Of a stretch of 64,000 nt of DNA, positions 34,942 to 57,150 are shown one piece after another (the stretch's first letter is position 1; every line of letters starts with the position of its first letter). Location: assembly GCA_905221605.1 (NCBI GenBank), contig CAJNDS010002109.1, forward strand, positions 532,168 through 596,167, read 5' to 3'. A model generated the notes under the pieces. The model did no database searches. It had not been told where the DNA came from and worked only from the letters and a program-made list of their open reading frames with translations. The stretch comes from Symbiodinium natans. Its lineage: Eukaryota; Sar; Dinophyceae; Suessiales; Symbiodiniaceae. Both the position numbers and the translations under genes were made by a program.

Positions 34942-35036
34942 GTATATATGTATATATATGTATATATGTATATATGTATATATGTATATATGTATATATG
35001 TATATATGTATATATGTATATATGTATATATGTATG
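34598..35036. repeat. GTATCTAT then GTATAT microsatellite
   Basis: About 34 GTATCTAT octamers, then GTATATAT/GTATAT units. It abuts the AT-rich satellite. Confidence 0.95.
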
Positions 35037-35069
35037 TGAGAGGGGCCTTTGGGGTCTATTTGGACACAA

Positions 35070-37505: not shown

Positions 37506-37534
37506 CGGCCCCCCTAGGCAATGCCCCTGCATCA

Positions 37535-38120
37535 TTTGGGATTTGCTTTACTTATCCCTTCGATTTCCCTCAGACTTCCCCTTAATAAATTCCCTTTACT
37601 TTTTATCATTGTTTCATTTTAGCGGCGCGTTTTATATTTGGTAAGGTCACATAGCTATTGTACGCGCAGTGAGTGATAAATAAACTTAGTTCTTTAGGAC
37701 CTGGTGCGCGTTGTGTACCTTTTCATTCATGCAACTTAATAATCTCAGCACAGAAAAAAAATAAATGAGTTACATCTGGCCTGCTTTTGAACACATCACA
37801 TAGCTGTGCCTCACACAATAAAGTGCGCACCTATTGACAAACGGCCTTTTTAAGGGGATTTTTTCCCTCTAAAAGCCTGGTGTAAGGGACGTCCGATTTC
37901 CCTCAAATTCCCTTTCATTTTCCCTTAGACCTCATGCGATTCTGGTGACTGCTGTAAAAATCCCCTAAACCATTCCCTTAAATCACTTGGGTTTCCCCTA
38001 TTTATCCCTTTAATTTCCCCTAGATTTCCCCTTAAAGTCCTTCAACGTTTCCCTTTATAACTTCCCTTTACTTATTGTCCTTGTTTCATTTTCGCCGTGT
38101 GTATTATATTTTATAGGATC
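37535..38120 (+). repeat. Imperfect direct repeat, T/C-rich
   Basis: A segment with TTTCCC/TTCCCCTTAA, CCCTTTACTT and TTGTTTCATTTT occurs at about 37535-37650 and again at 37990-38120. It fills the space between the satellite and the next gene. Confidence 0.6.
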
Positions 38121-38889
38121 TTTATCGGGAAAACAGAATCCTTTAGGGTTTAGGATTTAGGGTTTAGAGTTTAGGGATTGGGGTTTAGGGTAACTTCTTG
38201 TATTGCCACAGTCAAACATTAAGGAGTGGCCCAAGCCCCCAACCACGCCTCTACGCATCCCTCTCAATATTTGATTTGGGTTTAGGGTTTAAGGTTTAGG
38301 GTCCATCCTCTGCCTAGCAATTCGCTGCAGGTACGGCCCTCGGACGCGGTTTCGGATGTTGGCAGCACTATTGAAGGGCATAGTCTACGGTTTAGGACCT
38401 TCAGATGTCAAACCCAAGGGTTTCGCAGTTTAAGGTATGCGGGGTTCGGTCAGGGTATCAGGCTTTTGGGGTCTAAGGTTCTGTTTCGCTAGCAGATGCT
38501 AGGGACATATGCTCGGGACCCTAAACCCTAAACCTTAAACCCTAAACCCGCGCGGAGCCTATACCTTGGAAAGAATTTACGCAGAAGCCTCTATGCGAGA
38601 TACTACTCTCTGTAGTAAGCCCTAAGCCGTAAACCGCATCATGAACTGTTCTAATCAAAAAAGTCAGAGATACCATATGTGTCCAAGGGGATTCCTGGTG
38701 TCAAGGATAAGCCTCGTTTAGATTGTAGGGTTACAGACAATTTTCCATATGTTCTCTGCTATGTGATCCGTAACATACAAACAATGTAATCGCACATCCT
38801 AAGCAAAGTGAGACAGACGAGAACATTTGCAAATAGTTTTCGGCTCCCTCCAGCGTGGTTTCGCGCGGGCGCTCCCCTTTCGGCGTATC

Positions 38890-39346
38890 ATGGGCTTGAA
38901 AAAGCTTCAGAAGAAGATCAAGAAGGCTGAGGTGGAGCTGGAGGTTCGACAGCTCGAGGAATCCAGGCTGAACCAAGTAATTCTCAGTTTTGTTTTTTTT
39001 TCTCCATACTCGTCTAGTTCCTTAATCGCAGGTAAAGAGTGCAGAAACTCGTCGCGACGCAGCCAAAGACAGACTTCAGCTGCTGCGTGACCGGCTAGAT
39101 GAGCAGCAGTCGGAGTTGCCTAAGCCGTCTCACTCGCGAGCCGTGAAAACCCCCAAGACGGCCCCCACTACTAAACCAGTGCCCAAACGACGTCCGCTCG
39201 ACCCAACGCGGTGCCCTGCGTGCCAACAAGAAGAACGTAAGAGGCTAGGCCTCATTAAGGGTACTTCGGCGAAGCACTGGGGCACTTGCTCAAAGGGATG
39301 GAAGACGTCCAAGCCATCCTCTACGGATGCGTCAGAATCAGACTAA
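38890..39346 (+). CDS. Small two-exon gene: coiled coil plus Cys/His cluster
   Basis: Exon 1 is 38890-38976 from the first in-frame ATG, the intron is 38977-39031 (GTAATT...TCGCAG, 55 nt with a T-rich tract), and exon 2 is 39032-39346 ending TAA. The 133-residue product starts with a charged helix (LKKLQKKIKKAEVELEVRQL) that continues across the splice (RDAAKDRLQLLRDRLDEQQ). It then has a basic Pro/Thr linker and a C-terminal CPAC-x17-HWGTC cluster likely to bind zinc. That suggests a dimeric nucleic-acid or protein-binding factor; no family is recognised. It lies just outside the repeat-poor interval that contains the transposon and may be cargo or a neighbour. The strong splice sites and frame continuity across the intron are the main support. 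Confidence 0.6.
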
Positions 39347-39717
39347 GACCAAGCACGTTTTCCAAGCGTGAGTTCTCCAAAACTCTCAAGACTGTCTGAG
39401 TGCGCTTGCCACTAGAAAGGCTTCTTCAGCGCTCACTCACCAAGTTCTTTAAGGCTTGACTCCGCGAGCTCTTCTCGCTCAGCACGAAGCACGCCTGCAG
39501 CGGTACTAAAAAGATCTCTTCTTAAAGGGTAGCTTAGAGAACACCCAGAACCCTTGAGGCACGGCATCCCACGCTCAAGCTTTCGCAATTATTTGCGATT
39601 TCCGGCAGGGTGTTTAATCTTCTGTGCGTTTGGTGATTTGTTTGTTAATTCATCATATGAGTACGGGGTAGAACTATCGGGACCATGAGTTAAGGCGGGA
39701 AGCCGTATCAATCCAAG

Positions 39718-39825
39718 ATGGCACGCAAAGGCGGTTACACCGCGCATCGTACTGAGGTCAAGCCCTCGGACGCTGGAGCAGGGGCGTCAGACGCATTTAC
39801 GAAGTATCAGAGTGAGGTCCCCTAA
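39718..39825 (+). CDS. Short ORF or first exon
   Basis: ATG-started frame of 35 codons (MARKGGYTAHRTEVKPSDAG...) ending TAA. A possible donor GTGAGG lies before the stop (CAGA/GTGAGG). The last third is duplicated at about 39850-39890 with a broken frame. Composition is protein-like, but nothing else supports it. Confidence 0.22.
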   Translation: MARKGGYTAHRTEVKPSDAGAGASDAFTKYQSEVP

Positions 39826-39935
39826 ACACCAAACCCTAAATCCCACACCCTGGGGCGTCAGACGCTTTTAAGAAGTGTTAGAGTGAGGTCTCCTAAATAC
39901 TAAACCCCAAATCCCGCTCCCTAGCCCCTAATCCT
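39775..39935 (+). repeat. Tandem duplication of about 70 bp
   Basis: GGGGCGTCAGACGC...GAGTGAGGTC, then CCCTAAA-like tail, occurs twice with small differences. Confidence 0.7.
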
Positions 39936-40284
39936 AAACCCAAAATTTCAGTCCCAATGTATGTATGGGGTTTAGTGAACCCTTAAACCCTAAATTTCAA
40001 GCAGTGATATCTCATCTCTATACGGACTACATGTTCAACATGTCCTCGTATTGTGTATATCATGTACGCAAAGCTGCGGAACGCAGGCCTTTGTGTAGTT
40101 TGTATTCGGATGCATCTAATAATCTCACATCTTCTATGTTCAACTGGCGTATATGATTTCGTGTGCTTGGGTTTGAATTTTTCAAGTTTTTATAATAAAG
40201 CTTTGCTCGAAGTGAATAGGTGTTTTTCTTTGTATTATTTATGCCTTTCAAGCAGGAAAGTAGTGCATCGACTAGCTTAAGTAG

Positions 40285-41640
40285 AAGTGCCATGTCTACA
40301 CGACGGGCCACTCAGGGCTGTCGGATTCAGCGCGTGCTTTATGGCGGTGGAGCCTTTGTGGTTTCTGGCTTCGATATGCTGCCTGTTGGGCAAGGTTTCC
40401 GTCTTCATGACATGCCAGTATAGCATCAGCAGTGAGTGCTACATGGCGGGGGAGGCTTTACGGATTCCCGATATGCTGTGCGCTGAAGAAGCGTTTTGTC
40501 CTGACTTGCTTGATTCGCCGGTTGGTGCGTAGCGAAGCGAAGCACTGAAAGCGTCTCGTTGTTGCCTTGAGCACAGTGTGCAATGTCGAGGCTTTTACAG
40601 CTCGCAAGGTCTGCAAAGGGCAGAGGTAGGTTCTTGCCAGGTTCGTGCTTTAGATTTGCCCACTGCCTCCCCATGCGGTCCGGGAATTGGTTAGTTCCAT
40701 GCTAGGATGGCCTACATCAGCTAAACTGCTCGATTTGCGCATCCTCGGAAAATGATGCACAGGGCGTCAGGGGGTCGTGAGGGCTAACGGGTGGGACTCT
40801 TCTGTGAATACAACTCTAGAGACAAGAGCTATTTAAGTTTTAGACTTATGACATCCGTCCGTGATCTCTCTTGAGTCCGCTTGAGGCTCTTTCCAGTGGA
40901 GCATTAGATTTCAAAAGCTATGTGGCTGACTGCTGAAGACGGTCAATTGTCTTGGTACAGTAACGGACGCAGAAGCACGGTGTGCTCTGTGGTGGCGGAA
41001 ACCCTGGTCCGACGGGCTACTCAGGGCTGTTGGTTTCCGTTTTCGCGATGTGCTGGTATAACGTCAGCAGGGCGTGCTTCGTGGTAGAGGAGCCTTTGTG
41101 GGCTTCTGGCTTCAATACGAAGTGCAACTTGGAGTTGTGGGTTTCAGTCTTTACGAATGATACTAGTGTAGCATGCTCAAATAGAAGTGCCATGGTTACA
41201 CGACGGGCAACGCAGGGCTGTCGGACTCAGTCTCTGCGACGTACTAGTCTAGCATCAGCAGAGCGTGCTTTGTGGTGGTGGAGTCTTCGTGGGTTTCTGG
41301 CTTCCATACGCTGCGTGTTGGGGCAAGGTTTTCGTCTCCATGACGTACGAATAGCGTCAACAGTGAGTGCTACATGGCGGGGAGGATTTATATATTCCGG
41401 ATATGCTGTGCACTGAAGGAGCGTTTTGTCCTGACTCGCTTGATTCGCTGGTTGGTGCGTAGCGAAGCGAAGCACTGAAAGCGTCTCGTTGTTGCCTTGA
41501 ACACAGTGTGCAGTGTCGAAGACTTTGCAGCTCGAAAGGTCTGCAAAGGGTAGAGGTAGGTTCTTGCCAGGTTCATGCTTTAGATTTGCCCATTGCCTCC
41601 CCATGCGCTCCGGGAATTGGGTAGTTCCATGCTAGGAACG
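40285..41640 (+). repeat. Large imperfect direct repeats (5' repeat region of the element)
   Basis: A roughly 270-bp block (ACATGGCGGGGGAGGCTTTA ... TAGTTCCATGCTAGGA) at 40438-40706 recurs at 41368-41636 at about 90 percent identity. Diverged shorter units containing GCGTGCTTTGTGGTGGTGGA recur at about 40335, 41060, 41260, 41710 and 42015. Open frames here are shared repeat frames, not separate genes. Together with the 236-bp array downstream, this brackets the transposon coding region. Confidence 0.75.
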
Positions 41641-42199
41641 TTAGGGTTTTTAGGTTTGGACCCCCAGAACGTTGAGGTTTTCAGGTTTGGACCCCCGCAT
41701 AAGCACAGTGTGCTCTGTGGTGGCGGGAACCCTGGTCCGACGGGCTGCTTAGGGCGACACTAGTATAGCATCAGCGGTGTGTGCTACATGAGGGCGGATC
41801 CGTCTAGGATATCGAGGCTCATTCCACTTTCAGTATTCCGATTCTAGTACAGTGTAACCGTTCATTGCTTACAGAAGCTCTATGATTACCTGCTGACAAC
41901 TGTCGATTGTCTTCTTCGCAGAGGTGGCGGAGACCCTTCGGGTTGCTGGTCCAACCGGCTACTCAGGACTGTTAATTTCAGTCTGTGTAACGTACTGGTA
42001 TAGCGTCAGCAGGGCGTGCTTTGTGGTAACGGAGCCTGTGTGGGTTTCTGGCTCCAATACGTTGCGTGCTGGGCCGGCTTCACTATATACGTTGCACGCT
42101 TGATGTATACGTTGCACGCTTGATGAAGGTCATCACCTCGACAGGCAATACCTTCGCTGGGCTTGACTGATGGGCAAGACGGTGTGTTGACGACAGCAT

Positions 42200-43600
42200 G
42201 TTGCGGCACTCTGAATGTATGGGTAGATTAGCCTTGGATTCCAATCCAACGTAACCGTTTACTGCGTCAAAAGACGGAGCGTTGGAGTTCTTATAAAATC
42301 ATATAGAAGCTCTATAGTTGACTGCGGAAAACTGTTGGTTATTTTCCGGGTACAGTGCCAGAGACACAACCACAGCGTGCTCCATGGTGATAGAAACCCT
42401 TTGACAGTCGCGCAGCGCGTTGGACTCGCTGCTATGTGGGAACATTTCCTCGAGAAACAGTCCCTGCTCTGCGCGGGCATCGCAGGAAAGCATGCTGTGA
42501 TACATGTATGCTCCGCTATCCGACGGCTCGAGTCTTGCGTTGTTACAGCCTGAAATTGCTTGAACGAAACTTGACTGCACTGCAAGACTCGAGACTGTGA
42601 GAGACAAGAGGACGTCATCTGTTGTCTCCAAGGTTGAACCAGCTATTTGGTTTTGGTCGCGCGCGTAGCCTAATTGTGGAAAGCACGTTTCGAGCACGAA
42701 GCGTACTGTCGTGACCTACACTGAGGCCCATGGCTCGATTCTCAACCATTACCTGGTTTGCGGATGACGATGACGATGACCACTCAACGTCCTAAGCCCA
42801 CGTCGTTATGGTTCCTGCGAAAAAAAAACCGCCATGAACGTGAGGTCCGTGGAGCCTCCCCTCGAAAGGGGAAAGACACGGCGCCTCTCGGCTAGCGGCC
42901 TTGTTTGTGTAATGATCTATCCGAAAGCACTTCTCAGAAGCATGCTAGGAGTCTTCGTGGCGTATCAGAACCGATGGGTGAGGCCAGTGCCGAGTGTTTC
43001 AAATGTCAAACAGTTCGGACTCTCACGCAGCGCTCTATCAAGGGTCCAGATATCTCCCGACGAGATCTCGCCAGGGCCTCATACCCCTCTGATGCGCGCC
43101 CCTGTATACTATATCGACACCATCAGTCGTGAGGACCCACGTAAGTCCCGTCGAAACGTCTGTCGGAGCGTGGCAGTCTCAGAGAACGCCGCGCTTGCCC
43201 TGTGGAGCCTCTATGTGTGCGATATATGGGACATACCGCGCAGGTCGAACTCCAGCATGTACGACACGAACTCTGAAATGATCGACACCGGCCGCTGGCC
43301 GCAGGAGGAGTGTGTGCCCAAGATATCTAGGGAACCCTGTCACGAGCGGGTGTGGGGGGGGAGGGGGTAGAATTACGGTAGAATCGCTGCGATGCGCTTA
43401 TAAGTAACTTATAAGGCCTGCCGCCGCGGCCGCTGCCGACCCGCTTTTTGATGAGTTCGGAGCTGATAGCAGGAATGTGTTTTGCGAGTTACTACTTCTA
43501 CACCCTGCATCATCATGCAAGGTCCGTGTCCGAAGAAGACCCGAGCACGCCAAACCCCAAGCCACATATGACCACGAACGTTCTTGGCTTTCACGTGACT
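42200..43600. other. Low-repeat stretch upstream of the transposon genes
   Basis: No clear gene. A 178-codon plus frame at 42834-43370 starts with ATG but has uneven composition, and a competing frame lies at 42905-43132. Either may contain exons of the transposon's first gene. An A9 run at 42819-42827 decides the frame from an upstream ATG (42809): with eight A the frame would continue. Confidence 0.3.
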
Positions 43601-43625
43601 GACCCATCGAAAGGCTTTCTCCGGA

Positions 43626-45685
43626 GATAGAGACGCCCGCGCTGGACAAACTGCTCGCAAACGAGCCGCCGCCCTAGAACAACTTGTGAGTGCATGCAAG
43701 CGTGGCCACATGTGTCCGAGGTTGCACACCTATCCTTCCTGGTGTCGATTGCGTGCCTTCGCCCCACGGTGCCCTCTAGACACGCTCCTGAAGCTGGAGC
43801 ACACACCTCAGCTTCTCTTAAGGCTTTACATTCAAGGCTCACTGACACTATCGCCTAGGTCGGCCGCCGCTGAATCCTGGACAGACCTGAGGTGAGCGGT
43901 TCAGTCCGTTTGCGTTAGACCTGATCCGTGCGTCGTCAAGATGTCAATCACGCTTGATCAACGACTTTATTCAGCCTTCGGTGCAGCGGCGAACAGTGCT
44001 GAGGCGACCTCCGCCCGTGCCAGCGCGGAAGTGTGTCCCAGACGCATCTCAGTCAGTCATCGACCGTCATGATTGTGTTCTCCTGCGCAACAGGGGTTTA
44101 TATCGGCTATGGTCACAAGCTGAGCGGAAGCGACTGCTCCTGCAGCTGGGCTGCAAGTGGCCTGTCAAAGTACGAGATACGAGCCGCAATAATTTGCAAG
44201 CTAACTGATTCAGGCGACAGCTTGGTGCATGCTGTGGCCGCCCGCCTACGCGGCAAGACGACCTCTCACTTGACACCCTCAGTCGCAACCTGCTTACAAT
44301 GGAAACCTTGAATTTGTTCAATGTCTTTAACCAGCCAGACTCAGGATGGGCCAAACTGGAAGAGAATCTCAAGGAGAGCCTGGTATAGCGGCTTCAACGT
44401 ATACCTCGGAGGCGCGGAGGCAGTTGTTCTCCGAAGAAGCTGCCGGATTAAGTCACTCCCGCAGGGCAACCGCGGCGCAAGCCCAGCAGGGCTTCCAAGA
44501 AGAATGACCCAGGCCAGCTCTCGGGCATGGCTGAGTCGACAGTGTCCACATGTATACGTCGAACACAAGCTTGGCTAATTTGAAGGGCGCGTGCTGTCAC
44601 ATCGGAGGCGACGTTCGCTACGAGGATACCTGCCTCCCTGACTCCTTCAGGGCTATGGGGTTGAAGGTCGCTATCAATGGGCACGGCCCTTTTTTTGCAT
44701 TGCGTGATGGCAATCAGATGCTGGCCCCTCTGCAGTGCCGAGTCTGGATGAAGTATAACTGTAGGACAAGCAAATGAATCAATGTACAACCGCTACATGA
44801 CGTGGGCTCAGTGATCCGAGGCACACCATCCGTCGCATCTCCGACCCTGACACTGACCTGAACCCAGGAAGATACGTGCTGTATCGACAGAATCACTTCT
44901 GCGGACTACGAATCTTCGATGACGGATCATGTCACGTGACCACGAGCCACCGGACGCAAGACAACCTATGCATTGATGTCGCCGAGTTAGACCTTGGGTT
45001 TTATGAGGCTGTCTTCGTCGTAGAACCTATGGCATGTGGCGCAGGAGATAGGAAGAAGGATGAAATCATCATTGAGGACAAGGCAGGCGGTTCCCCCGGT
45101 GTACACGCGTCTGACTCCGAAGAGTCGTACAACAAGTTAGTGCAGTATATTGACCAGTACGTTATCGTCCACAGAATCCAACACATCGAGAGCGTGGCCC
45201 TCACTTACATTCAGGAGCTCGTGACCTGTCCTGAATTATGGTTTCATTTCCCCAACCCACTCCGCACCCAGATTGATAAACGCACGTGGCGACATTTCAT
45301 GGACTGCTTCGAGTGCAAGGCTAACAAGGTAACGGAACTCGTGGATCCACAGATTCTAGTTTCTGGCCTACGTCCTTCCGCTCATGGGGCCCGACATGCG
45401 CATTCTATATCAGATGTAGATCGGGCCGTCAAGAGAGTCGGTGCCTGGGCACGGATGATGATCCGGCTGTTGGGTTGCGATGATACGGTCAGACTGTTGT
45501 CACCTGTTGACCCTGCCGTTTCTAAAAGAACGTGGGAGAAGCATCTCTTCGACGTCCGCAGAAGCCGGGTGGTCGTGACTCGGACGATCCCATCTTCTGT
45601 GGACACATCATCAGCAGCCCGCAAGCAAGACTTCCTGGGCGGCATGACCGGGAAGTCTGCCTGTCTCCCTAGCAGAAGCTCCTCG
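43626..45685 (+). CDS. 5' exons of the transposon polyprotein (partly resolved)
   Basis: A plus exon ending at 43685 (RKRAAALEQL, then donor GTGAGT) can join in phase to 43941 (MSITLDQRLYSAFGAAANSA). Several frames between 44030 and 44750 look coding but are cut by introns I could not place. The best is 44550-44750 (motif TCLPDSFRAMGLKVAING), which can join through GTATAA...GGAAG to 44872-45685 (YVLYRQNHFCGLRIFDDGSC, then YEAVFVVEP). A Cys in CLPDSF and a His in NHFCGL separated by a short domain resemble the Cys-His arrangement of small deubiquitinase-type peptidases; this is a guess from spacing only. The last exon ends QDFLGGMTGK followed by SSS and a donor at 45686 or 45688, which can join in phase to the next exon at 45789 or 45791. 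Confidence 0.45.
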
Positions 45686-45788
45686 GTGTAACTGGAAAAT
45701 AAACACATGTACGAGCCAGCAATCTGTCTGTGTAGTTATGCTTCAGGCTTTCTTATAATTGCAAGCTAATCTACCCATAGATTCAGAG

Positions 45789-47624
45789 AGCTACAACATG
45801 CTGTTGTCAACGCACCATCTTGCCCATCAGTCAGGTCCAGCGAAGATATTGCCTGTCGAGGTGATGACCCTCATCATGCGGTATCGCAACGCCTTCCACC
45901 AAGGTCCTGTCGCACCTGCGGATCTGACCAGTAGATGCCTGGAATACTCTGGCTTGCAAGCACGCATAATCAGTTTCTGCGTTGATACAACCTCCGATGA
46001 CGAGGACATGTTTTGGATCATTCCCGCTCGGCATGCCTTGGCGTGTTGTGCTAGATTCACATGCGCTGAGAGACTGCGACATCCGGTACCAGCGCAGGCG
46101 CACAGAGTGCGGTGTGTATCGCCGAGACTCCAGATTGATGCTCTGCATGACGACCCTGACTTCATTGACTATCTAGGCGGGGTGAGCCACAGGGCTGGAT
46201 TCCAGTCGGCTGCGTCCCTTTCGTCTCCTCGTACACGTGCAGCTCCGCTGTCTACGTCACTTCCAGTTGAAGTGTTGGGATGCATGCCCGGATACTTCTT
46301 CGACTACCACTACCTGCATGCTTTAGCGATGGCATCTCGGGCGATGCTTATGGCGACTCGGAACAAGGCACATTGGAGTGGTCTACATGTGAACGCCGAC
46401 CAGCCGAGTCTGGAGGTGGCGCGCAGGTTGAGGTCCGTCGTCGACCTTTCGTCGAAGGCTAAAATGATCAGTGTCAATTTGCGTCAGCTCGCCATGCTCC
46501 TTTCGCCAATACCAGCTACTCTCAGGCTGCGCTGGGACACGGTTCCATTGCAGCCGCAACCTCGCCCCCGCAATCTTCTTTTTGCTTGTCGCTCGAGAAG
46601 GCCTATGATGGGTTTTGCCGATTTTGATCTATTCTTGCCGGCCAATGTGCGAGGTATGTATGTTGGGGTCAGAGAATGGAACGGGCAAAGACGATCTTAT
46701 TGCAGAGTCGATAACATCTTCCATGAAAGCATTACCTGGTCTGTTGGAATTAATGACTTTCCGGCCAGACCGCACATGTCAGCCAGCGTGCATGCACCAG
46801 TTCCCAATGCTCTTAACAGGTTACACTTGAAGTGGGATCAGCGAGCCTTTTCGATCGGGCTGAATGGAGTGGGTGTCGCTCGCGCTCGACTCATAGACGG
46901 AGAACACGGTGATGCTGCGCCGCCACTTTCGTGCGTGTTCTTCATGGCTTTCGGACATGGAAGACATCAGCAGCCTTTTCTGCAGTTCAGCGCAGTACCT
47001 TCAGCAGTTCAGCCCAATAGCAGAATCAGATGCGGTTTCTGCAACCAGCAACACTCGCTACTGCCATCGCGCTGGAGCGTGTGTCCTGTGTGCAGCACAT
47101 GGGTCTGCTCGTCACATATCGGACAGGCGCAAGCGACCAACTGTCCAAACTGTGTGATGAGACTACAGGACTACTTGGGAGGATCATCTGGATTTCACCG
47201 GGATGATGGATCGACTTGTCGCCATGTCCCTCTGTGTCTAGAAGTTCAGGATTGTCTGGGAGGAGCTTCAGCTTTCGCAGGTGCTTTGGAGAAGAGTTAT
47301 CAGCGTTTCGTGCCAGGGTGTATCATATTTAAGTCCTGTGCTTCCCGCCCCACAGCGAGCAATTGCTGGGTTAGCCAAGGCGTATGGCCCAAGCCTTTGC
47401 CAGATATGGTTGGCAGTGTCATCGCGAGCAATTCTCCGAGTGAGCCGTTCTTCCAAATGACAGAGAACCCAGCAGCAGACGACACGGATGGCCTGGAGTC
47501 GTGTTCCGCACTGGCTAACATCAATCCACACGAAATAGACGCAAGACTTCGTTTCCAGACCGAAGGACACGCTTATTTCTTCGATGAAGAGAAGGTCGAC
47601 ACAAGTGCCAGGTCCTTATTTGAT
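45789..47624 (+). CDS. Polyprotein N-terminal part: F-box-like and zinc-ribbon modules
   Basis: Open from 45759; the exon probably starts at 45789 or 45791, or translation starts at ATG 45798. It contains two F-box-like starts (LPVEVMTLIMRY and, near residue 167 counting from 45759, LPVEVLGCMPGYFF). A beta-rich stretch with SPRY/lectin-like flavour follows (WSVGINDFP, FSIGLNGVGVARARL). Then comes a metal-binding cluster near residues 425-465 (CGFC, CPVCSTWVCSSH, CPNC) resembling a RING or zinc ribbon. Three xLGG motifs (46167, 47166 and 47247) lie between modules. The exon ends SARSLFD at donor GTGCGT, and the join to the next exon restores VTSLIHEY, the start of the nuclease domain. F-box and RING-type modules point to ubiquitin-pathway contacts; that is inference. 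Confidence 0.6.
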
Positions 47625-47677
47625 GTGCGTTATGCGCTGTCTGGGTTTTAAGCTTGGGTCTGTTCCGTTCCGTCTAG
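47625..47677 (+). other. 53-nt spliceosomal intron
   Basis: GTGCGT...CCGTCTAG, phase 0, with a TAA in frame. Removal joins FFDEEKVDTSARSLFD to VTSLIHEYAAVFDAW. The H-x-Y-x-x-x-E...SVTSLIH pattern is typical of the N-terminus of RecB-like nucleases in mobile elements, so the join is supported by homology as well as by frame. Confidence 0.75.
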
Positions 47678-50085
47678 GTTACTTCGCTGATTCACGAGTA
47701 TGCCGCAGTGTTCGATGCATGGCAGGCCGTGCAAACCATGAAGGCAGGCAAGAACTGGCCCCGGCCGGAATATGCTGTCTCAGACATTCCAGTAGATGTC
47801 ATCCTGCTGAAGCTGATCGATTCGCCTGGCAGCGTCCGTGAGAAATTGACCGAGGTTCTCCAGCATCAGCCTTTGGATATTGAGAGCCTTTGCACTGAGC
47901 TCATCCGACATCGTGAAGAGCTTTCTAACTGGGATGACATTGTGCAGGAAATCATGCTTCAGGATAATGAAATCTTTGATCTTTGGAAGAAGAAGTCATC
48001 TCAAGCATGCAATGCCGGGACATGGATGCATTCGATGCTCGAGCACATGATGAACGGCTCCGACATAATCCCTGGACCTATGACGAATGAGCTGAACATG
48101 GCTATAGACTTCCTGCGTGACCTACACGACGGGATGCCTGGACTGGTCGCCTATAGGTCAGAGTGGACCATTCACGCAAGCCAAGAGAATCTGGCAGGAT
48201 CTATCGATTTGGTTTTACTCGACAGGAGTGATGATAAGTTAGTGCTGATAGACTGGAAGCGCAGCGAGAAACTACCCCATAAATACAACAGCTATGGGAA
48301 GTTCATGATGGAACCGCTGCAAGACATTCCGGACTGCCAGGGCCACCATTATAGATTGCAGCTTAACATCTACAAGTGGATTCTTGAAAGCTACTACTCC
48401 AAGAAGGTGAAGGGTATGAAGGTTGTGTGCGCCTATCCAAATTCATGTAACGAGGCTTTCGTGGATGACGTGCCTGACTTGACAATTACCGTCGACCGGC
48501 TAATGAAACATCGCCGAGCTCACTTACAAGCCAAAGGGCCAGCGTGCGATTTTTCGCAAATACCTGACACAGCTGATCTGGCCGAAGAAGAAAGGATCCA
48601 TCTTCCTGGTCTGCCAAGCGTGCAAGCGTTGCCAGAGACAGCAACAGCCATTGCGCAGGACACCCTGTTGGCGCTACAAGAGGAAGCCGGAAGCACCGAC
48701 GAAGGCTTTCAAGTGTTCCTGCGTAAAAGGCGTGAGATGAAGGGCGCCAGCGGCAATGCACGGCTATTTCAAGACATGTTTACGACCAACGACAGTCTTC
48801 TTCAAAGAACCCTCGACCGAGAGCCAGCTGATGCCTTACAACCGCCTGAAACCATCCTGCAAAACACGAGACGTGGCATAGAACAGGTTACTGAGCTGCA
48901 TCCTACCTGGTCATCCGAGCTGCTGCGCCTGTCACTTGTTGCCGGCTACCTCTGCCAAGCCCGCATAGGTGACAGACCCATGCTGGCAGACTGCGCTGGA
49001 CTTCTTTGGATGATGGAGGGCGAGAGACATATTCGTGTTCACAACGGTTTCTGCTACGTGTACGACGAGGAAGGTACATTTCTTCCATTTGGCGGGGTCC
49101 CTCCCGAGACTGTTCTGAGAAGGGTGCATGCATTTTGCACCCGTCTTGAAGGCCTTCTCCTGCTCATGCCATCCCGCACCAAGAGACAGCCTTCGCATTT
49201 ACTGGATGCAATCGCGGCTAAAAGGCAAGAGTTTCCGTCTGATGATGCTTTCCTGGAGCACTGTACGGGTAATGTTACGCAGGGCAGATCCAATATCGAT
49301 CAGTATCAGCGATTGGATTCAGCTGCGCCTGAAGACACAGCAGAGGAGCATTCGCTGCAAGTGGCGCAGGAGGTTAGTGGGGATGGACGAGAGCCTTGGA
49401 CTGTCTCTGTGGCTGATAGAGTCTGGAAAATCTCGCGCGCTCTCCGATCCGAGCTGACGCAAACCAAGCTGATATCCCTCTTGGTGGAATGGTGCGAGAC
49501 GCCCGACCAAAGACAAAGCTGCCTGTGCTATCAAGACTTGTGTGTCAGATACGATGCCGACCGTGACACAGCAGTGAAGGCCGTCCCGAAAGCATCCTCG
49601 AACGACTGTTACATCAAGATTCCACATGCGTTGAAAGATCCTGTGCTAGAGGAGAACGTCCTGCGAGTACGCAAATTCTACTCGCAGACATTCTGGTGCA
49701 ACTTCGACGTTTTCAGGTGCTGCATGGCTGCAGCCGCGTTAGCGAAGAGGGGCTTCAACGTCGACAGATGCTTTATCGGCATATCCCCAGGCGGGGTCGG
49801 CCAAAGCCTCTACTCCTTGCATTTGGCTGCAATGTTTGGCAACAATCATTCTTTCTTTGACCCGAATGTCTGGCACAACGACGAGGAACTCCGCAAGCAA
49901 GTGGAAGGATTTGCACGCTGTTGTGTCATAACGGGGCAAGAGGCGCCGGAGTCCTCTCGTAAATTGCATCTGGATCTATACAAGACAACTATGAGTGCTG
50001 ACGGGATCATGGGAAGGAAACCTTATGGGTACACCACGCGAATGTTTTCGATCTGCGGATGGCTGCCCGGCTACAAGCATGGTTG
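47678..50085 (+). CDS. PD-(D/E)XK nuclease plus SF3-type helicase
   Basis: Counting residues from 47708: a RecB/Cas4-like nuclease fold occupies about 1-275, with GTWMHSMLEHMM (His108), LAGSIDLVLLD (Asp167), VLIDWKRS (Asp182, Lys184) and HHYRLQLNIYKWIL (Gln218, Tyr222). These are the conserved acidic/Lys and QxxxY positions. A linker and a helical D5-like region follow. The helicase NTPase core then has a Walker A-like FIGISPGGVGQSLY (691-702), an acidic motif CCVITGQEAPE, and a sensor region DGIMGRKPYGYTTRMFSICGW. The invariant Walker A lysine is Gln699, so ATP hydrolysis is doubtful unless this is sequencing error or divergence. The helicase continues across the next intron. A nuclease-helicase pairing next to a polymerase indicates a replication module. 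The frame is open for about 2.4 kb. Confidence 0.72.
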
Positions 50086-50160
50086 GTAACATGAATATTG
50101 CTTCTTCACGGGTGGGTGTGCGTGGGTTTAATGTATTGTTCTACTTTAGACTGTGCCAAG
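50086..50160 (+). other. 75-nt spliceosomal intron
   Basis: GTAACA...TGCCAAG, phase 2. The join gives HGWKRLELNRMMMFAGV. GWKR-x-E-x-N is the end motif expected for this SF3 helicase type, which fixes the acceptor at 50159-50160 rather than the earlier TTTAG. Confidence 0.7.
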
Positions 50161-53093
50161 GAAGAGATTGGAGCTGAATCGAATGATGATGTTTGCTGGT
50201 GTCAACATCGGAAACTTCAACTCCATTCTGCGTCGCGCGCTTGTGTGGAAAGCAAAAGCCAGGTTTATGCCTGCGCGGTATCTACACAATCACCCAGGCC
50301 ACGAGGAAGCTGGTATTTTTGAGGCCGACCCGTCCCTCAGCAAGTTCCTGTCGTCCACACAGGCATCGATTGCTGGACTTCGTCTCCAACATGCATTCGA
50401 GCTGCAGTTTAACAAAGAGCAGTGTTACCAGCTCATTGATGAATATGTGAACAGCGGGGATGACTACCTGACAGAGGATACTATGCGAACGGCCTGTTCT
50501 CTGCCAATTCGTCAAAAGACAAACGACACTGACGCAAGTGTGGGCAATCTCCTTGCAGGCTCGAATTCACAGGATGAACGCGACCGAGGACAAGCTGAGT
50601 GGGATAATTTGACGAACGCCATTACACAAAAAATGTTGGAGACTCAGATAGACGCTTTATCCTTTTATGAGTTCAAGACAATGACGTTTTAGTGCCAGAT
50701 CCCAAACCTTCCGAAGTCATCTCTCTGGGACGAACTGCAGAACAAGAACTTCATGATGAAGTGCGTGCTCAGGACAACCAAAAGCAACAAGGAGAGGCCT
50801 GGAGGTTTGTTACCGTTGATCACATTCAAGAAGCCACTGGACAGCGTCATCGATGTCTCTCGATCCAGCATGTTGGTTTTCCAGGAACTACATAATATTG
50901 TATCCCTGACGGAGTACATCAACAAGTTCCCTGCGCGAGCATCTAACGTCAGCGTAGTCATGAACTACCTTAAGCAAGCGCTAAGTGAAAAAAAGGCAAA
51001 AGGCCGACCCGGTATATCTGCCAAGACGGAGAAGAGTGGTTTAGAAAAGAAACTTCAGAAGATGAAGGAGTACGAAGCATCTCTGGAATATTACATGAAT
51101 TTGCCTCGGGCAACAAAGAGAAGACGTGTGACAGGCAAGACCGAGTCGGTTCCCGAACCAGTTCCGGCAGACCCTGGTCTCCATGCCCTGGATGTAACGT
51201 ACCACTACGCCGACAAAAGCAATGTTCGGAGTCGCAGGTATACCAAAAGGGCAGGCGCTCAGTCCGCGCCAAGAAGAGTCCAACACAGAACCTTGTCGGA
51301 GCACACTTGCGATCTGGACATCGCGAACTGCTGCCTGACGATTCTTCAGCAGCTCATCGTCAAGATGGAGCCGACCCCATGCCTACCAAAGGATTTGCGG
51401 TCTGTGCTGGATAAATGTGTCGAGGATCGAGATGGGTTCGCACGCGACTGTCTGGACATGTCGCCGGCAGAGGCAAAGGCCATGATCAACGTCGTTTTTA
51501 ATGGGGGTGCCCCGCCTGCTGGTGTGCAGAACGACTACGTCCGGAAGCTTCAGTCCTTAGGGATCTACTGTCGATGGCTCGCGTGTAACGCTTTGCCGGA
51601 CGATTTCGACAAGTTAACCGCGGATGCCAAAAAAAAGCGACCGATGGCGTCCACGCTCCATCTTTTCTGGACCTCCGTGGAAGACGCTATCATCGATGCC
51701 TGGCTAGAGGTCTTGGGTCCGTTCTCGCCCAAGCATATGTCCTTACATTTTGATGGTGTTAGGATCGACAAAGCTGTCGTTGAAAACAACGCCGATCTCA
51801 TTTATAGATGCGAGAAGACCATCGTTGACAAGACCGGGTTCAGTGTTCGTATTGTGCAGAAGACCACAAGTACAATCGCAGGTCTGTTTGCTGCAAGAGC
51901 TGAGACTGTCATTTCTTTAAGATCGGTACCACCGACATTGATTCAAGACGGCAATTGTATACCGTGCGCCATGTGGCATCTATTTTCAAAGAGTAGAGCG
52001 GAGATCGATGCAACCTTCAGCAGTGCGGACAGAAAGGAGAACGCCGACGCAGTCGAGCAAGGGTTTCGCTCCTACAGAGCATGCGCCACTATGGCAAAAA
52101 GAGACATCCACGCCTGTCTGGGTCTTCCAGAGTCGGAAGTCGACAAGTTCATCTTGCATTTTGAGAACGATGGCAAACCTCACTGCTTGGCTGTACAGTA
52201 TAGTGCCACCAGAGATCACGTGTCTGTGCTAGATGGTGCAACGCACTCTCGGCTCACGTCGAAGAATTTTACCTCGTCTGTTCTCGATGGGATAGACTCA
52301 TCAACAGCAGTGAGCTTCTGGGAACAAGAAGTGGGGAGAGCTGGCGCCGCTGTAATGCTGCTGGATCTTAAAGCTGGAGCGAAACACGCAGCCCCCGATA
52401 AGGGCAAGGCGGGCCATGCTTCAGCAGCTTTCTCGGAGAGGACTAGGCAAAAGCCAGGTCTAGTTCACTCAGATGTCAGCGAGAGCGCAGGGTCGGATGC
52501 AGAAGACGCCGGCGCCGTGTCGCCTTCTCAATGCGCCATGTTTGAAGACGAAGATGAGGGTCTGATGTTTTCGGAGAATATACTGGAAAAGATGGCCGAG
52601 GAAGTCCGCGTCTACGTGGAAAAGTTGCCGTCAGGTGGCAGGAACATGAGAATCGGGGGCAAACATAAATGCAGGTTGTGCCCCTTTCGAGTTTTCAACA
52701 AGAAGGATGGACTTTTGACTCATGTCCGCAAGTACCACACTGACATCAACCAATATGTATGCTCCGGCACTAAGCAGATGAAGGTGATTCTCGCCCTGCA
52801 CGATCATGCTGCAGGACTCCAGACACCAGTCCATCAATATCTTCAAGAGAGCGCACGGCTCATGGCAGACACGGTGGTCCTGCCTTCAACTACGTCTCGC
52901 AACTACATAGATAAGACGATCAGGTTACTTTTCAAGTCCAGTGGTCCAGAGTATGTCAGCGTCTCGGAGCTGGGCAAGACAATAGTGGCTCGCCGAGTTC
53001 GGAATATTTACTACGACAAGTCTTTTGCCGAGATGCTGTTCCAAGAGGTACTGATGCATCATGTTCAGGCTGGATGCACAGCTGTTGACTTGT
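50161..53093 (+). CDS. Helicase C-terminus, TV-Pol-like polymerase, OTU-like peptidase, C2H2 finger
   Basis: One frame runs 50161-53093 with a single TAG at 50690-50692. Before it: the helicase C-terminus (FMPARYL, FEADPSLSKFL). After it, counting from 50753: a coiled basic segment; a polymerase palm with HTCDLDIANCC (Asp187, Asp189, Asn192), AKAMINVVFNGG (Lys242) and SLHFDGVRI (His332, Asp334). These resemble motifs A, B and C of family A-like transposon/virus polymerases (TV-Pol; Iyer, Abhiman and Aravind 2008). Next is an OTU-like peptidase with QDGNCIPCAMWHL (Cys402) and KPHCLAVQY (His477). An acidic linker follows, then a C2H2 finger at 640-662 (C-x2-C-x13-H-x4-H). After the finger, QYVCSGTKQMKVILALHDH leads into the transposase N-terminus. 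Polymerase plus peptidase plus helicase in one chain is characteristic of large self-synthesising transposons. Confidence 0.72.
50690..50692 (+). other. In-frame TAG inside the polyprotein
   Basis: The codons on either side are in the same frame and read smoothly (FYEFKTMTF, then CQIPNLPKSSLWDELQNKNF). No GT-AG intron that removes the TAG restores the frame. Either a nonsense mutation, readthrough, or a real boundary between two proteins. Confidence 0.7.
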
Positions 53094-53162
53094 GTGAGTA
53101 TCACGCGTGAATAGAAATCATAAGATATGTCCATTCGTCCCGACATTTCTTGCAGGTTCGAG
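53094..53162 (+). other. 69-nt spliceosomal intron
   Basis: GTGAGT...TTGCAGGTTCGAG, phase 1. Alternatives (donor GTATCA at 53098, acceptor CCCAG) also keep frame. The strong GTGAGT favours this one. Confidence 0.6.
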
Positions 53163-54598
53163 CTACCTGGCCCAGACTGCATCTTCGAGCTCACGAAGCT
53201 GGCAATCAGCTCTCTTCTCTATATCCCACTCACACTCGGCATTGGTGGCCACTTCTTGAGGATGTCGCGTATTCAGCTGCAGTGCAAACGAAGATGAAGC
53301 AAATGATGGATACTCTTCTCGACAACAAGGAATGGCTCTACGTGAGTGTGGATGCAACGCTTAGAACATGCCTCAAACTCAAGGGTCAGGAGTCATATCG
53401 TGCACCGAAGGCGGCTCGAGATGCTGCTCCGTTTCCTGACACCACAGCGTGGAGACGGCTCCTTACAGTCCGAGGTCGTACCGGAGCTGTGCTGCTAATG
53501 GCGCCTCTGGCAACTGAGAAAGCAGAGCATGTCGTGGATGAGTTCCAGCTTAGCTTCTCAGAAGCTTCCTTGGCACAAATCGAATTTCTCGCCACAGATC
53601 AGCCATCTCCGAAGTTGTTCTCGCAGTTGCGTAGCATCTGCGCGAGTCTGAAGCGCGTGGCCCTCGACCCAATCCATCTCGCAATCGTGTATGAGTATGC
53701 ACATTGGAACAAGCGAACGGCTGGTTCTAGGATGCTGCGATCACTTCTGCGAAAGGTGCTAGCCATTGACGCAAGCAAGACCGCTAAGAACTGGGGCACC
53801 ATGTTCACCGGCAGCAATCCTTCACCGCTGAGCCAAGACGAGGAACGTGCGCGAGATCACATATGGCACCGGACTATGCCCAAAGCCGAGGCTGAGGCAT
53901 ACATGTCGAATCTGTGCACTGATGTTCCCTTTTACAGCCGCCTTGAATTCATAAGGGGTCTAGCAGCTTTGTGTAGCTTGAAGCCAGAGGAAGTTGGCAG
54001 AAAGGTAACCGCCGCCAACAAAGAGGTGTTTAAGATCCTCTGGTCAGCCGTTGCGCCGGACCGCCTCGAATGGTTGTGGAACAACCTTCGGCTACGACAT
54101 GGCATGACTCCGCAGGAAAGAGCATTTCTACCCAGTGGGACTTCCTCGAATGAGGCTCTTCACGCGGAGATCAATGCATGGTTGCGCACAGCCAACTCCC
54201 TGCACAGATCCACGCTTCTCTTGAAGCTGCGTCTAATGCACTACCGCAAGTTACTAGCGCATCACGTTGCCATGTGCTTTCCCTTTGCTAGAGTCACGGC
54301 TGAAGGTGTCATTTTGTCGCGTGCATTAGCCAAGCCTTTATGGTCTGAGGCCAGCTGGCTAGCTTGGTGTAACGAGCAAAAGGATAATGGAAAAGGCCCG
54401 CAGAACAAGGCTGAACTTCCACTTGTCCGTGCTCGTGAGGAGGAGGCTTCTGTAGTGCGGGTCTGGGCTCAAAAGAAGCCGGCTTCTAAGCGAGGGTATG
54501 TCAAGCGCACACCCTTCAATGCGAAGCGGCAACACCAAGTTCAGGTCGGGGGCATCAAAAGAAAGTGCCGTCGGCCGGTAAGTGCCGGATCTAACTGA
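53163..54598 (+). CDS. DDE-type transposase
   Basis: A 478-codon exon ending TGA. Counting from 53150: WPRLHLRAHEAGNQLSSLYP at the start, then LYVSVDATLRTCL (Asp68), EFLATDQPSPKLF (Asp150), RVALDPIHLAIVYEYAHW (Asp173) and GTSSNEALHAEINAWLR (Glu335, Glu340). The spacing of acidic residues within predicted beta-strand contexts, with a helix-borne Glu at the end, fits an RNase H-fold DDE transposase. Asp68, Asp150 or Asp173, and Glu335 are the likely triad. The C2H2 finger encoded just upstream would be its DNA-binding arm. The C-terminal 60 residues are basic. The zinc finger and transposase halves are split by the 69-nt intron. It would cut and join the element ends, which were not identified. 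Confidence 0.72.
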
Positions 54599-55320
54599 GC
54601 TCGTGACAGATGCGCGTGTGGAAAATTGAGTTGCTCTGGTGACAGTTATGCCTGATGAGTCCATAGATGACGTGGTCTCGTGTTTATTTTCGGAGTAGCG
54701 TGAAGGTCGGCTGATTGGATTGGGCATCGTTTGTCGGCTGTTCTGCTGATCTGATGCGTGACATGCTTTGGCATGGGTTCGGTTCGGGATTATGTGAACT
54801 ATCAAGAGATCATGTGAGAGTGAAACTTGATCCAATGGCATGGCTGCGGCCCTCCCATGCTCGTCATCAGGTCTGCGAAGGGTTCGGTGTATCTGTGTTT
54901 TCGTTGCAACTGACGCCTCGCTTGTCTTTCTTCGTATGACGTTGATTGGATCTTATGTTCTGGAGAGCCATAGTTTTTAGGCGAGTTGTTGTTGTCGACG
55001 GGTGCGAGGTCCGGAAGAGGTCCTGCTGTCCCTGCTTCTTCTTTTTCTTCGTTCGTCGAATTGACTTACCATGTGCTGGAGGCCATCTTTGTGGGACCGT
55101 GAGACGCGGGGCTTCTGACAGTGTGTGTTCTTCTCCATGGCAGAGGTTGAGGCCATGTCGTCGAAAGGGGGGCAGTTAGCTATTCCTTGCTATAGCTCGT
55201 CTCGCTGGATCCGGCTTCGCGAGAGGCTTTGGCACACATTCATTTTTCATGGAATGGGTATGGTGGAGCACATGATTGTGTTGGGAATGGATCTTTGGTC
55301 GTTCCTTGAGGCTGAGACCT
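54599..55320. other. 3' flank of the transposon coding region
   Basis: About 720 bp without repeats or convincing frames. It probably contains the 3' UTR. Confidence 0.4.
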
Positions 55321-55321
55321 T

Positions 55322-56270
55322 CATATAGGTGGTTTACCGAGGCTAGGATCTTCGTATAGGTGGAATTGGTCACTTCCTGAGGCTGGGACCTTCATATAGG
55401 TGGAATTGGTCATTTCCTGAGGCTGGGACTTTCGTATAGATGGAACTGAATTTTGGCTGGAAAAAGAGTCACCGGCCGAAGAGGCCAGGATGTCGAAGGT
55501 GTCGAAAGCGATACCGTTCCTTATCCCATAAATATTCTAATTCCCTCATTGACTCCTCATATAGGTGGTTTCCCGAGGCTAGGATCTTCGTATAGGTGGA
55601 ATTGGTCACTTCCTGAGGCTGGGACCTTCATATAGGTGGAATTGGTCATTTCCTGAGGCTGGGACTTTCGTATAGATGGAACTGAATTTTGGCTGGAAAC
55701 AGAGTCACCGGCCGAAGACGCCAGGATGTCGAAGGTGTCGAAAGCGATACCGTTCCTTATCCCATAAATATTCTAATTCCCTCATTGACTCCTCATATAG
55801 GTGGTTTCCCGAGGCTAGGATCTTCGTATAGGTGGAATTGGTCACTTCCTGAGGCTGGGACCTTCATATAGGTGGAATTGGTCATTTCCTGAGGCTGGGA
55901 CTTTCGTATAGATGGAACTGAATTTTGGCTGGAAACAGAGTCACCGGCCGAAGAGCCAGGATGTCGAAGGTGTCGAAAGCGATACCGTTCCTTATCCCAT
56001 AAATATTCTAATTCCCTCATTGACTCCTCATATAGGTGGTTTCCTGAGGCTAGGATCTTCGTATAGGTGGAATTGGTCACTTCCTGAGGCTGGGACCTTC
56101 ATATAGGTGGAATTGGTCATTTCCTGAGGCTGGGACTTTCGTATAGATGGAACTGAATTTTGGCTGGAAACAGAGTCACCGGCCGAAGAAGCCAGGATGT
56201 CGAAGGTGTCGAAAGCGATACCGTTCCTTATCCCATAAATATTCTAATTCCCTCATTGACTCCTGACAAG
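55322..56270 (+). repeat. 236-bp tandem repeat, four units
   Basis: Each unit contains two or three internal copies of TCCTGAGGCTGGGACCTTCA-type sequence and ends with ATTCTAATTCCCTCATTGAC. One unit lacks a base (GAAGAGCC versus GAAGACGCC). Identity between units is above 97 percent, so the array is young. Open frames here are repeat-derived. Confidence 0.95.
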
Positions 56271-57150
56271 GAGCGAAATAGTAACTATACCACAAAAGTT
56301 AATACAATGCCTATATCCATCGCTTGTGTGATGAAAGTTGCGCTTGCGAAGACACACCCAAAGCATCAATCGAGACGGAGAAGAAGGAAGCCAGGCCAAA
56401 GATATGACGGGCGAAATCGCTCAGATGGAACCATGAGAGGGTGAGACATATTCTCCGCATTCTTCTGGTTATAGCGAGTCATTGATTGATAATGGATCAC
56501 CGAAATGGCGATCTATTCTTTCATTCTTTTTACCGGGGCTCTTGGCCCCCGTCATTGAGACCTACAGTTGCGTTGTGTGGCGAGATCTCTTGTGAATTGC
56601 GACATCTACAGAGCCCGCCCGTGATGGTTCCTGTACCTCAGTTTGCGAGGGTTTGGAATGGCGGCGCCCTACTTGTCACGTGCGAAGAGTATGGAATGGT
56701 CATGGCTACCACTGGAGACCCTAGCCCGGAACCGATTCAGATCCTTGGTGAATGCACGACACACCCTGCAGTCCTGCATGCAAAGGTCTGGAATGGCTAG
56801 GGTCTAAAATAGTGTGGATGTCTATGTCAGGCCCAGGGTCTACAATGGCGAGTTCAGGTTCTGGCCGCTCATTCTGAGGGCAGTACTTCAATATAAAGGA
56901 AATGGCCAAATGGACCCTAAAGGTCTCGGCCACATATATATATATATGCACATGTATATATGCACATGTATATATACATCTTGCTTCGAAATACATATTA
57001 GCAGAGGCATATACTGCACAGGCCCCACACTTCTTTCCTATTACACTGCACACAAGCCCCACACTTCTTTCCTGAGGTTTCGGGTTGAGGGCTGCCGCAT
57101 CTAGGAGTCAGGGCTGCCGAGGAATGACAAAACGCAAGCCTCGTCTGTCT
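56271..57150. other. Repeat-poor stretch, no gene recognised
   Basis: Short imperfect repeats of GTCTGGAATGGC/TATGGAATGGTC (56640-56840) and an ATATAT/GCACATGTATAT run (56930-56980). No supported frame. Confidence 0.4.

Follow-up and report, generated by a model that had tools for sequence, protein, structure and literature searches.

The Polinton/Maverick transposons are described as elements of 15-25 kb that encode a polymerase of their own together with an integrating enzyme of the DDE type (PMC6431247). The same source holds that a nucleic-acid-primed polymerase and primase joined to an integrase could yield new giant elements. A family that looks like this predicted case, with a TV-Pol polymerase fused to a DDE transposase, is present in the dinoflagellate Symbiodinium natans, and one member lies in the 64,000-nucleotide stretch of DNA analysed here (contig CAJNDS010002109.1, positions 532,168 to 596,167 of the forward strand), hereafter the window. 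The explanation that we consider probable is a self-contained multi-copy DNA transposon with one polyprotein gene, in which a nuclease, a D5-like ATPase and TV-Pol would copy the element and the DDE transposase would insert the product into AT microsatellites. In comparison with Polintons, the window element has one polyprotein, an apparent A-family TV-Pol and an AT-microsatellite target, and the Pfam and PHROG matches to its exons include no PolB, retroviral-type integrase or capsid, which places it outside the Polintons.

Other described systems share single aspects with this element. Bacterial TV-Pol mobile elements and Sputnik couple TV-Pol to a D5-type helicase, the bacterial elements neighbour transposases, integrases or resolvases, and TV-Pols are stated in the same account never to show nuclease fusions (PMC2579912). 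In the window element, by contrast, the helicase-like domain precedes the polymerase, a nuclease is fused to them and the DDE enzyme is part of the same chain. The TV-Pol group was predicted to prime DNA (PMC2579912), and priming was shown in one bacterial complex (PMC10061031). The CcPol-MP primase of SCC elements, a TV-Pol-group A-family polymerase that primes DNA with a partner, lies beside a helicase in a mobile element; that system is, however, bacterial and made of separate proteins, with an SSB-like partner and serine recombinases (PMC10061031). In Helitrons and Helentrons with an OTU or VTD peptidase, a ubiquitin-type peptidase likewise accompanies a large, fused protein for replication (PMC9741609, PMC6431247), but they use an HUH endonuclease and rolling-circle replication, whereas the window element has a DDE enzyme and inverted repeats. 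The Mutator-like MuTAnT elements insert into TA microsatellites, have inverted repeats and occur as autonomous and short copies; their 9-nt duplications and single 833-residue protein differ from the window family, whose flanks agree solely with duplications of an even length, which is 2 bp in the window copy (PMC4486113 for MuTAnT). Teratorn combines a cut-and-paste transposase (piggyBac) with a viral replication module from a herpesvirus (PMC5601938), but is about 180 kb long, with some 90 further genes and different enzymes (PMC6431247). Within the open-licence literature we found no element with a nuclease-helicase-TV-Pol-peptidase-DDE fusion; subscription papers, most preprints and Repbase lie outside this scope, and prior naming there is possible. 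The family may represent a second origin of self-synthesis among eukaryotic transposons.

Ends, copies and insertion sites of the element

Alignment of copies reveals sharp ends of the element at 35036 and 56933, bounded by imperfect terminal inverted repeats:

35036..56933, + strand: complete mobile element, 21,898 bp, with ends common to near-identical copies in contigs C385 and C254
35036..35063, + strand: left terminal inverted repeat, GTG-N7-CCTTTRGGGTCYATTTGG (copy alignment; genome-wide pattern count)
35073..37513, no strand: left subterminal satellite, ~69-bp spacing, also in a 6.3-kb non-autonomous copy
55321..56264, no strand: right subterminal tandem repeat, ~236-bp unit, four copies
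56906..56933, - strand: right terminal inverted repeat, AT repeat on its outer flank (copy alignment; genome-wide pattern count)

A preliminary description of this DNA had delimited the transposon gene as 43626..54598. Conserved coding was found from ~44.6 kb on, and the mobile element is twice the size of that interval. The element ends, the microsatellite targeting and the pattern of Gly-Gly sites between modules escaped that description and are new in this analysis, as is the non-autonomous copy. It suggested a search of related genomes for multi-copy homologues with conserved ends; such homologues were found in the own genome (C385, C254, C1669, C1860 and C69).

Searches of the own genome cover 759 Mb in 2,543 contigs. 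The inverted-repeat pattern has 83 matches there, against 0 for a reversed control pattern. Reading this list by hand yields 10 inward-facing pairs of a left-type and a right-type end, namely the window element, one C385 copy and eight pairs of 6.3-16.7 kb. The one short pair of the eight that was read, C2456:211901-218260, is a 6,260-bp copy with the ends and the left satellite of the window element, in which tblastn with the tested exons gives no match; it is a typical non-autonomous derivative. A larger end group is formed by the 56 of the 83 ends (hand count) that read ATGTGGCATGGACCTTTAGGG or nearly so.

The DDE exon (53156-54598) has at least 89 matches in the own genome, with four places at 99-100% identity, and the N-terminal exon reveals a fifth near-identical locus at 100% (C935). 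The long copies are 99.5-99.85% identical across their longest aligned blocks, indicating that movement or duplication is recent. A family in C1669, C1860 and C69 has a transposase 63-64% identical to that of the window and matching ends, its C1669 element measuring 22,814 bp; in a further family, with a 52% identical transposase, the right end, the only one reached, resembles that of the window element. The window family is a source of part of its own genome's repeats.

An AT-rich repeat lies outside the right end in 10/10 cases (window, one C385 copy, C254, C1669, C1860, C69, C2117, C2389, C391 and C2456) and outside the left end in 4/4 (window, C1669, C1860 and C2456), counts that leave out the junction of two C385 copies, where nothing but the dinucleotide AT lies between the ends. 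The element inserts into AT-rich microsatellites. The flanks of the window copy fit a 2-bp AT target duplication and those of other copies fit even lengths, while 9 bp, the common length in Mutator-type elements, does not fit; flanks of the form ...AT/GTG and CAC/AT... exclude odd duplication lengths, unless the repeats changed later. The two C385 copies (C385:112001-153640) stand head to tail with the junction CCAC-AT-GTGAG, only a 2-bp AT separating their ends. They are each other's nearest relatives, with 13 mismatches in 15.5 kb, and the contig terminates within one of the two.

The polyprotein gene and its domains

The element has a single recognisable gene, encoding a polyprotein of ~2,860 residues when exon lengths are summed starting with the exon at 45759, and more with upstream exons. 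A slash marks the intron border:

44616..44732, + strand: short stretch ahead of the main frames, conserved in tblastn against two other families
44801..45688, + strand: conserved N-terminal frame, its end near the DFLGG site (32% identity to the C1669 family)
45759..47606, + strand: exon with the nuclease start behind the N-terminal module (labelled by eye as F-box-like, SPRY-like and RING-like Cys/His); 78 own-genome matches
47607..47677, + strand: intron 1, GC...AG/G, 71 nt (junction as in P0139 and P0150)
47678..50061, + strand: exon with PD-(D/E)XK nuclease, linker and helicase-like domain
50062..50160, + strand: intron 2, GC...AG/G, 99 nt (relatives run on as GW-KRLExN)
50161..50689, + strand: exon with the helicase-like domain end and linker to the polymerase (relatives' continuity)
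50690..50692, + strand: in-frame TAG of the window copy (sense codon in 3/3 other copies)
50693..53068, + strand: exon with TV-Pol-like polymerase, Cys peptidase and C2H2 finger
53069..53155, + strand: intron 3, GC...AG/G, 87 nt (relatives such as P0043 and P0063 run on as HH..-VKSxWPRL)
53156..54598, + strand: exon with the DDE transposase

In the open frames of 45759-54598 on the + strand, the motifs follow in the order nuclease, helicase-like P-loop, TV-Pol palm, Cys peptidase, C2H2 finger and DDE, as had been proposed. The claim that they form one chain through three introns stands in part. The three predicted introns, of a dinoflagellate type and all starting with GC and ending with AG before G, fit in that they restore the continuity of uninterrupted frames in relatives, and GC/GA-AG borders are reported to make up 25-74% in Symbiodiniaceae (PMC11453091). 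GT-AG introns had been considered first and were dropped, as it is GC donors that agree with the uninterrupted frames of relatives. The in-frame TAG at 50690-50692 means that the window copy is not one clean chain; a location of this codon within an intron is ruled out by the sense codon of the three other copies. The nuclease exon of the C254 copy contains its own stop and the exon before it has gaps; the most upstream frame of one C385 copy shows a gap of 9 bases.

Relatives were searched with each exon separately, giving 25 for the polymerase and 107 for the transposase (both among the best 8,000 candidates) and 37 for the nuclease; wherever the source names an organism, it is Symbiodinium or Cladocopium. 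With the exons mapped onto them, single chains run from the nuclease to the polymerase exon (P0136, P0139), from the helicase to the zinc finger (P0006) and from the polymerase through the zinc finger to the DDE domain (P0005, P0007). Within the same genome, a second family has an uninterrupted 1,731-residue frame from nuclease to zinc finger in 3/3 copies read, and the C391 family has one 2,972-residue frame with the N-terminal module twice, followed by nuclease, polymerase, peptidase and zinc finger. These intron-free frames make the nuclease-to-finger fusion independent of splice guesses. The frames conserved between the window family and two others fall in the polyprotein gene; the sole match outside it, at 39026-39343, is weak (37 residues, E 3e-4) and to one of the two. 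This list covers frames with a start between 37,600 and 55,300; those starting further out gave no match when compared separately.

The motifs of the individual domains are located as follows:

49772..49816, + strand: P-loop FIGISPGGVGQSLYS, Gln replacing Lys (Gln in 21/21 relatives aligned across the P-loop)
51311..51328, + strand: polymerase motif A, DLDIAN
51476..51517, + strand: polymerase fingers motif, KAMINVVFNGGAPP
51740..51757, + strand: polymerase motif C, SLHFDG
51947..52183, + strand: Cys peptidase core, GNC ... PH (Cys 23/23, His 22/22)
52664..52738, + strand: C2H2 zinc finger (Pfam zf-C2H2_4 E 0.061, below cut-off; 11/62 relatives match at E <= 1)
53351, 53597, 53666-53677 and 54152, + strand: DDE residues D, D, DPxH and E (invariant in an alignment of 59)

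The polymerase displays the TV-Pol landmarks in order: RRY...GAQ..RR with the hairpin Arg, DLDIxN (motif A), GKxxINxVxNGG with the fingers Lys and SLHFDG (motif C), residues as set out by Iyer and others (PMC2579912). In hhalign, 22 family rows against 6 TV-Pol reference rows score 51.0 with a probability of 87.6, compared with 25.5 for the best of 40 column shuffles and 15.1 for the reversed alignment; P0001 and P0012 (near duplicates) and P0014 (misaligned) had been dropped. The six references were gathered from MAP_030 of Microcystis phage Ma-LMM01, taken by its motifs and neighbouring transposase as the TV-Pol named in PMC2579912. These results support a TV-Pol assignment. No relative emerged when viral contigs were scanned, either with the DDE exon or with the polymerase alignment, and scans of genome contigs with TV-Pol queries gave nothing beyond one plasmid. 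An unnamed TV-Pol-like protein with the motifs GGGFQ, NxDM and HDGAL was seen in large Erwinia and Dickeya phages (PHROG_30690) and in a viral contig.

A PD-(D/E)XK nuclease is supported by the match of its exon to the PHROG_298 exonuclease (E 3.7e-17) and by Pfam PDDEXK_1, which reaches E 6.9e-4 here, under the model cut-off, and matches 11/33 relatives (best E 1.4e-4). Relatives of the nuclease part in P0157 and P0165-P0168 are fused to ankyrin repeats. For the helicase-like domain, a phage D5-type helicase profile scores 28.1 against at most 24.0 in 100 shuffles, with the P-loop and a downstream motif in register, and the phiadh helicase profile 30.8 against 26.7 in 30 shuffles. The window reads SPGGVGQS where Walker A would have GxxxxGK[ST], and the assignment to D5/SF3-like helicases is weak.

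The putative Cys peptidase has GNC in 23/23 and His in 22/22 relatives, and the OTU-type Asp before GNC is not conserved. No OTU catalytic-domain model is among the matches listed (for relatives, the best 25 of 28 and the best 25 of 47 families), which leaves OTU membership unproven. The peptidase alignment does not show the Asp-x-His motif of VTD-type peptidases, which makes that type less likely. Relative P0019 carries ubiquitin-like domains behind the peptidase (Pfam ubiquitin E 1.7e-20). In the transposase, D66, D148, D171-x2-H174 and E333 are present in 100% of the 58-59 rows with a letter; the invariant D, D and E in order, together with the inverted repeats on the element, identify a probable DDE transposase. 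DDE_Tnp_ISL3 (2/62 relatives, best E 0.07) and TNP-like RNase H (1/62, E 0.0097) are too weak for a superfamily assignment. KDZ/Zisupton elements have a KDZ transposase and an 8-bp target duplication. A MULE model is not among the matches listed for the window exons or for relatives (for the latter, the best 25 of 47 families), and the duplication length does not fit MULE membership either, unless the repeats changed later. Sequence profiles compared with the PDB gave just zinc fingers and weak matches judged to be chance.

Taken against the preliminary description, the PD-(D/E)XK nuclease, the TV-Pol-type polymerase, the DDE transposase and the exclusion of a Polinton/Maverick hold up, as does the fusion of a replication-type module with a DDE transposase in a predicted spliced gene of a eukaryotic transposon, borne out by shared-end copies, inverted repeats, microsatellite sites and a non-autonomous derivative. 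Its SF3-like helicase is a weak assignment and lacks the usual P-loop Lys, and its OTU-like Cys peptidase retains the invariant Cys and His without an OTU model among the matches listed.

The N-terminal module and the Gly-Gly sites

The N-terminal module, which by eye resembles an F-box, an SPRY-like region and a RING, found no supporting model in a Pfam search. Of 86 DDE places, 53 have it on their own strand and upstream, mostly 7-9 kb off, compared with 0 on the opposite strand and 4 downstream; for this count, 3 of the 89 DDE matches and 8 of the 78 matches to the module were dropped as further or weak pieces. Candidate processing sites within and between the modules are (slash after the Gly-Gly pair):

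45611..45661, + strand: SAARKQDFLGG/MTGKSA
46149..46199, + strand: FIDYLGG/VS (C1669 has FDYLGG/S at the matching place)
47151..47201, + strand: LQDYLGG/SS behind the RING-like CxxC (D-[YF]-[LV]-G-G-[SA] in 4/4 families compared)
47232..47282, + strand: VQDCLGG/AS
48722..48748, + strand: RKRREMKGA, a conserved linker that may be a processing site or a nuclear signal
52358..52381, + strand: LLDLKAGA behind the peptidase, possible processing site (Gly 23/23)

In the four families, the site behind the RING-like CxxC reads LQDYLGG-S, LQDYLGG-S, LADYLGG-A and LMDFVGG-S, and in C391 a Gly-Gly site separates the two duplicated N-terminal modules. The motif D-x-L-G-G occurs 4 times in 912 N-terminal residues, two exons concatenated across a putative splice, against a shuffle mean of 0.014 and a maximum of 2 in 20,000 shuffles. 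Over all 97,083 residues of the relatives, DxLG[GA] has 14 matches, an estimated mild excess; the strong signal is in the N-terminal region of the window. Gly-Ala motifs comprise RRxxxGA, which separates nuclease and helicase, and LLDxxAG, which follows the peptidase. The conserved Gly-Gly sites between modules suggest self-processing of the polyprotein, which would mean that a DNA transposon uses a polyprotein strategy based on Gly-Gly sites like those of ubiquitin.

Propagation of the element and competing explanations

The Cys peptidase of the polyprotein, or deubiquitinases of the host, may cut the chain into modules at Gly-Gly and Gly-Ala sites, and its F-box/RING-like module may engage the host ubiquitin system. 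The transposase would free or nick the element at the inverted repeats, the nuclease, D5-like ATPase and TV-Pol (primase-polymerase type) would copy the excised or nicked element, and the DDE transposase would insert the copy into an AT microsatellite, perhaps with the C2H2 finger guiding it to the inverted repeats. Freeing or nicking and insertion are proposed because of the element's anatomy; the copying step, and hence the self-replication that we infer, is proposed because of just the domain identities and the C385 pair. Replication via an end-joined circle or concatemer could leave such a pair, as could local insertion into AT beside a copy, unequal crossover or an assembly error.

An ordinary DDE transposon that moves by cut and paste and has taken up replication domains of virus type into its protein, with a nuclease, ATPase and polymerase that serve only in end processing or gap repair or are inactive, would also display inverted repeats, a short apparent target duplication and a same-end non-autonomous copy, and the loss of the P-loop Lys in 21/21 relatives fits it. 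We consider this unlikely, since even relatives with as little as ~27-30% identity retain the nuclease region, the Asp residues of the polymerase and the order of domains, which is odd for passengers, and the C385 pair is exactly head to tail. It is far less probable that the element is an endogenous virophage or Polinton-like virus, or a remnant of one, that gained a transposase. In Polinton-like viruses, TV-Pol is joined to a D5-type helicase. Sputnik has this arrangement too (PMC2579912), and many such insertions are reported in dinoflagellates (PMC10120064). Against this origin stand the confinement of conserved frames to one gene, bar the weak 37-residue match, the lack of a capsid or packaging model among the Pfam and PHROG matches to the exons, the C2456 short copy with only its ends in common, and a domain order unlike that of Sputnik, whose helicase is C-terminal. 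Separate genes of one locus, or exons chained wrongly, might be suspected from three introns and one in-frame stop in the window copy, and are hardly credible in view of the 1,731- and 2,972-residue frames, which refute this for nuclease to zinc finger, and of P0005, P0007 and other fused relatives that carry the zinc finger on to the DDE domain.

The role of the peptidase allows a variant inside the self-copying transposon reading rather than an exclusive alternative. Instead of processing the polyprotein, it may protect proteins of the element as a deubiquitinase, a role proposed for enzymes of Helitrons and herpesviruses, and the Gly-Gly sites would be cut by host enzymes or be chance linkers. 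The OTU and VTD deubiquitinases described in Helitrons (PMC9741609) and the ubiquitin domains fused behind the peptidase of P0019 agree with this variant. The constant place of D-x-[LV]-G-G-[SA] behind the RING-like CxxC in 4/4 families compared and the Gly-Gly site between duplicated modules of one frame do not, and we regard it as a serious but somewhat doubtful possibility.

Several observations weigh against a self-copying transposon. Gln takes the place of the P-loop Lys in 21/21 relatives, including P0133, a near copy of the window's, which makes ATPase activity doubtful; this recount by alignment spans all relatives, an earlier 18/18 having used rows chosen partly through a Gln-containing pattern. 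The same Gln is found in C1669, C2117 and C391, and its constancy poses a clear biochemical question. The D5-type profile match has a probability of just 11-13%, the P4 helicase profile (29.6 against 26.1) aligned off the motifs, and a mis-trimmed helicase profile scored 18.9 against 23.5 for its shuffles. Motif C falls outside the TV-Pol profile alignment and is read by eye, the Gly-Ala motifs are perhaps mere linkers or nuclear signals, and the tandem C385 pair is possibly an assembly or unequal-crossover product. No Pfam model above cut-off is among the matches listed for the peptidase, N-terminal module and transposase (best 25 of 47 families), apart from ankyrins and a fused ubiquitin in individual relatives. 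Upstream of its polyprotein frames, the C1669 element has a 451-residue frame that has no window counterpart and no Pfam match, possibly a further gene or exon in some families.

With these points in mind, we propose only tentatively, at a little short of an even chance, that such elements form a separate class of self-synthesising eukaryotic transposons. They would encode one self-cleaving polyprotein with a nuclease, a helicase-type ATPase, a TV-Pol-type primase-polymerase, ubiquitin-type peptidase and ligase modules and a DDE transposase, replicate through an end-joined circle or concatemer, insert into AT microsatellites and make up a large part of dinoflagellate repeats.

Throughout the window (1-64000), many interstitial TTTAGGG-type telomere-like repeats and variants of them occur on both strands.

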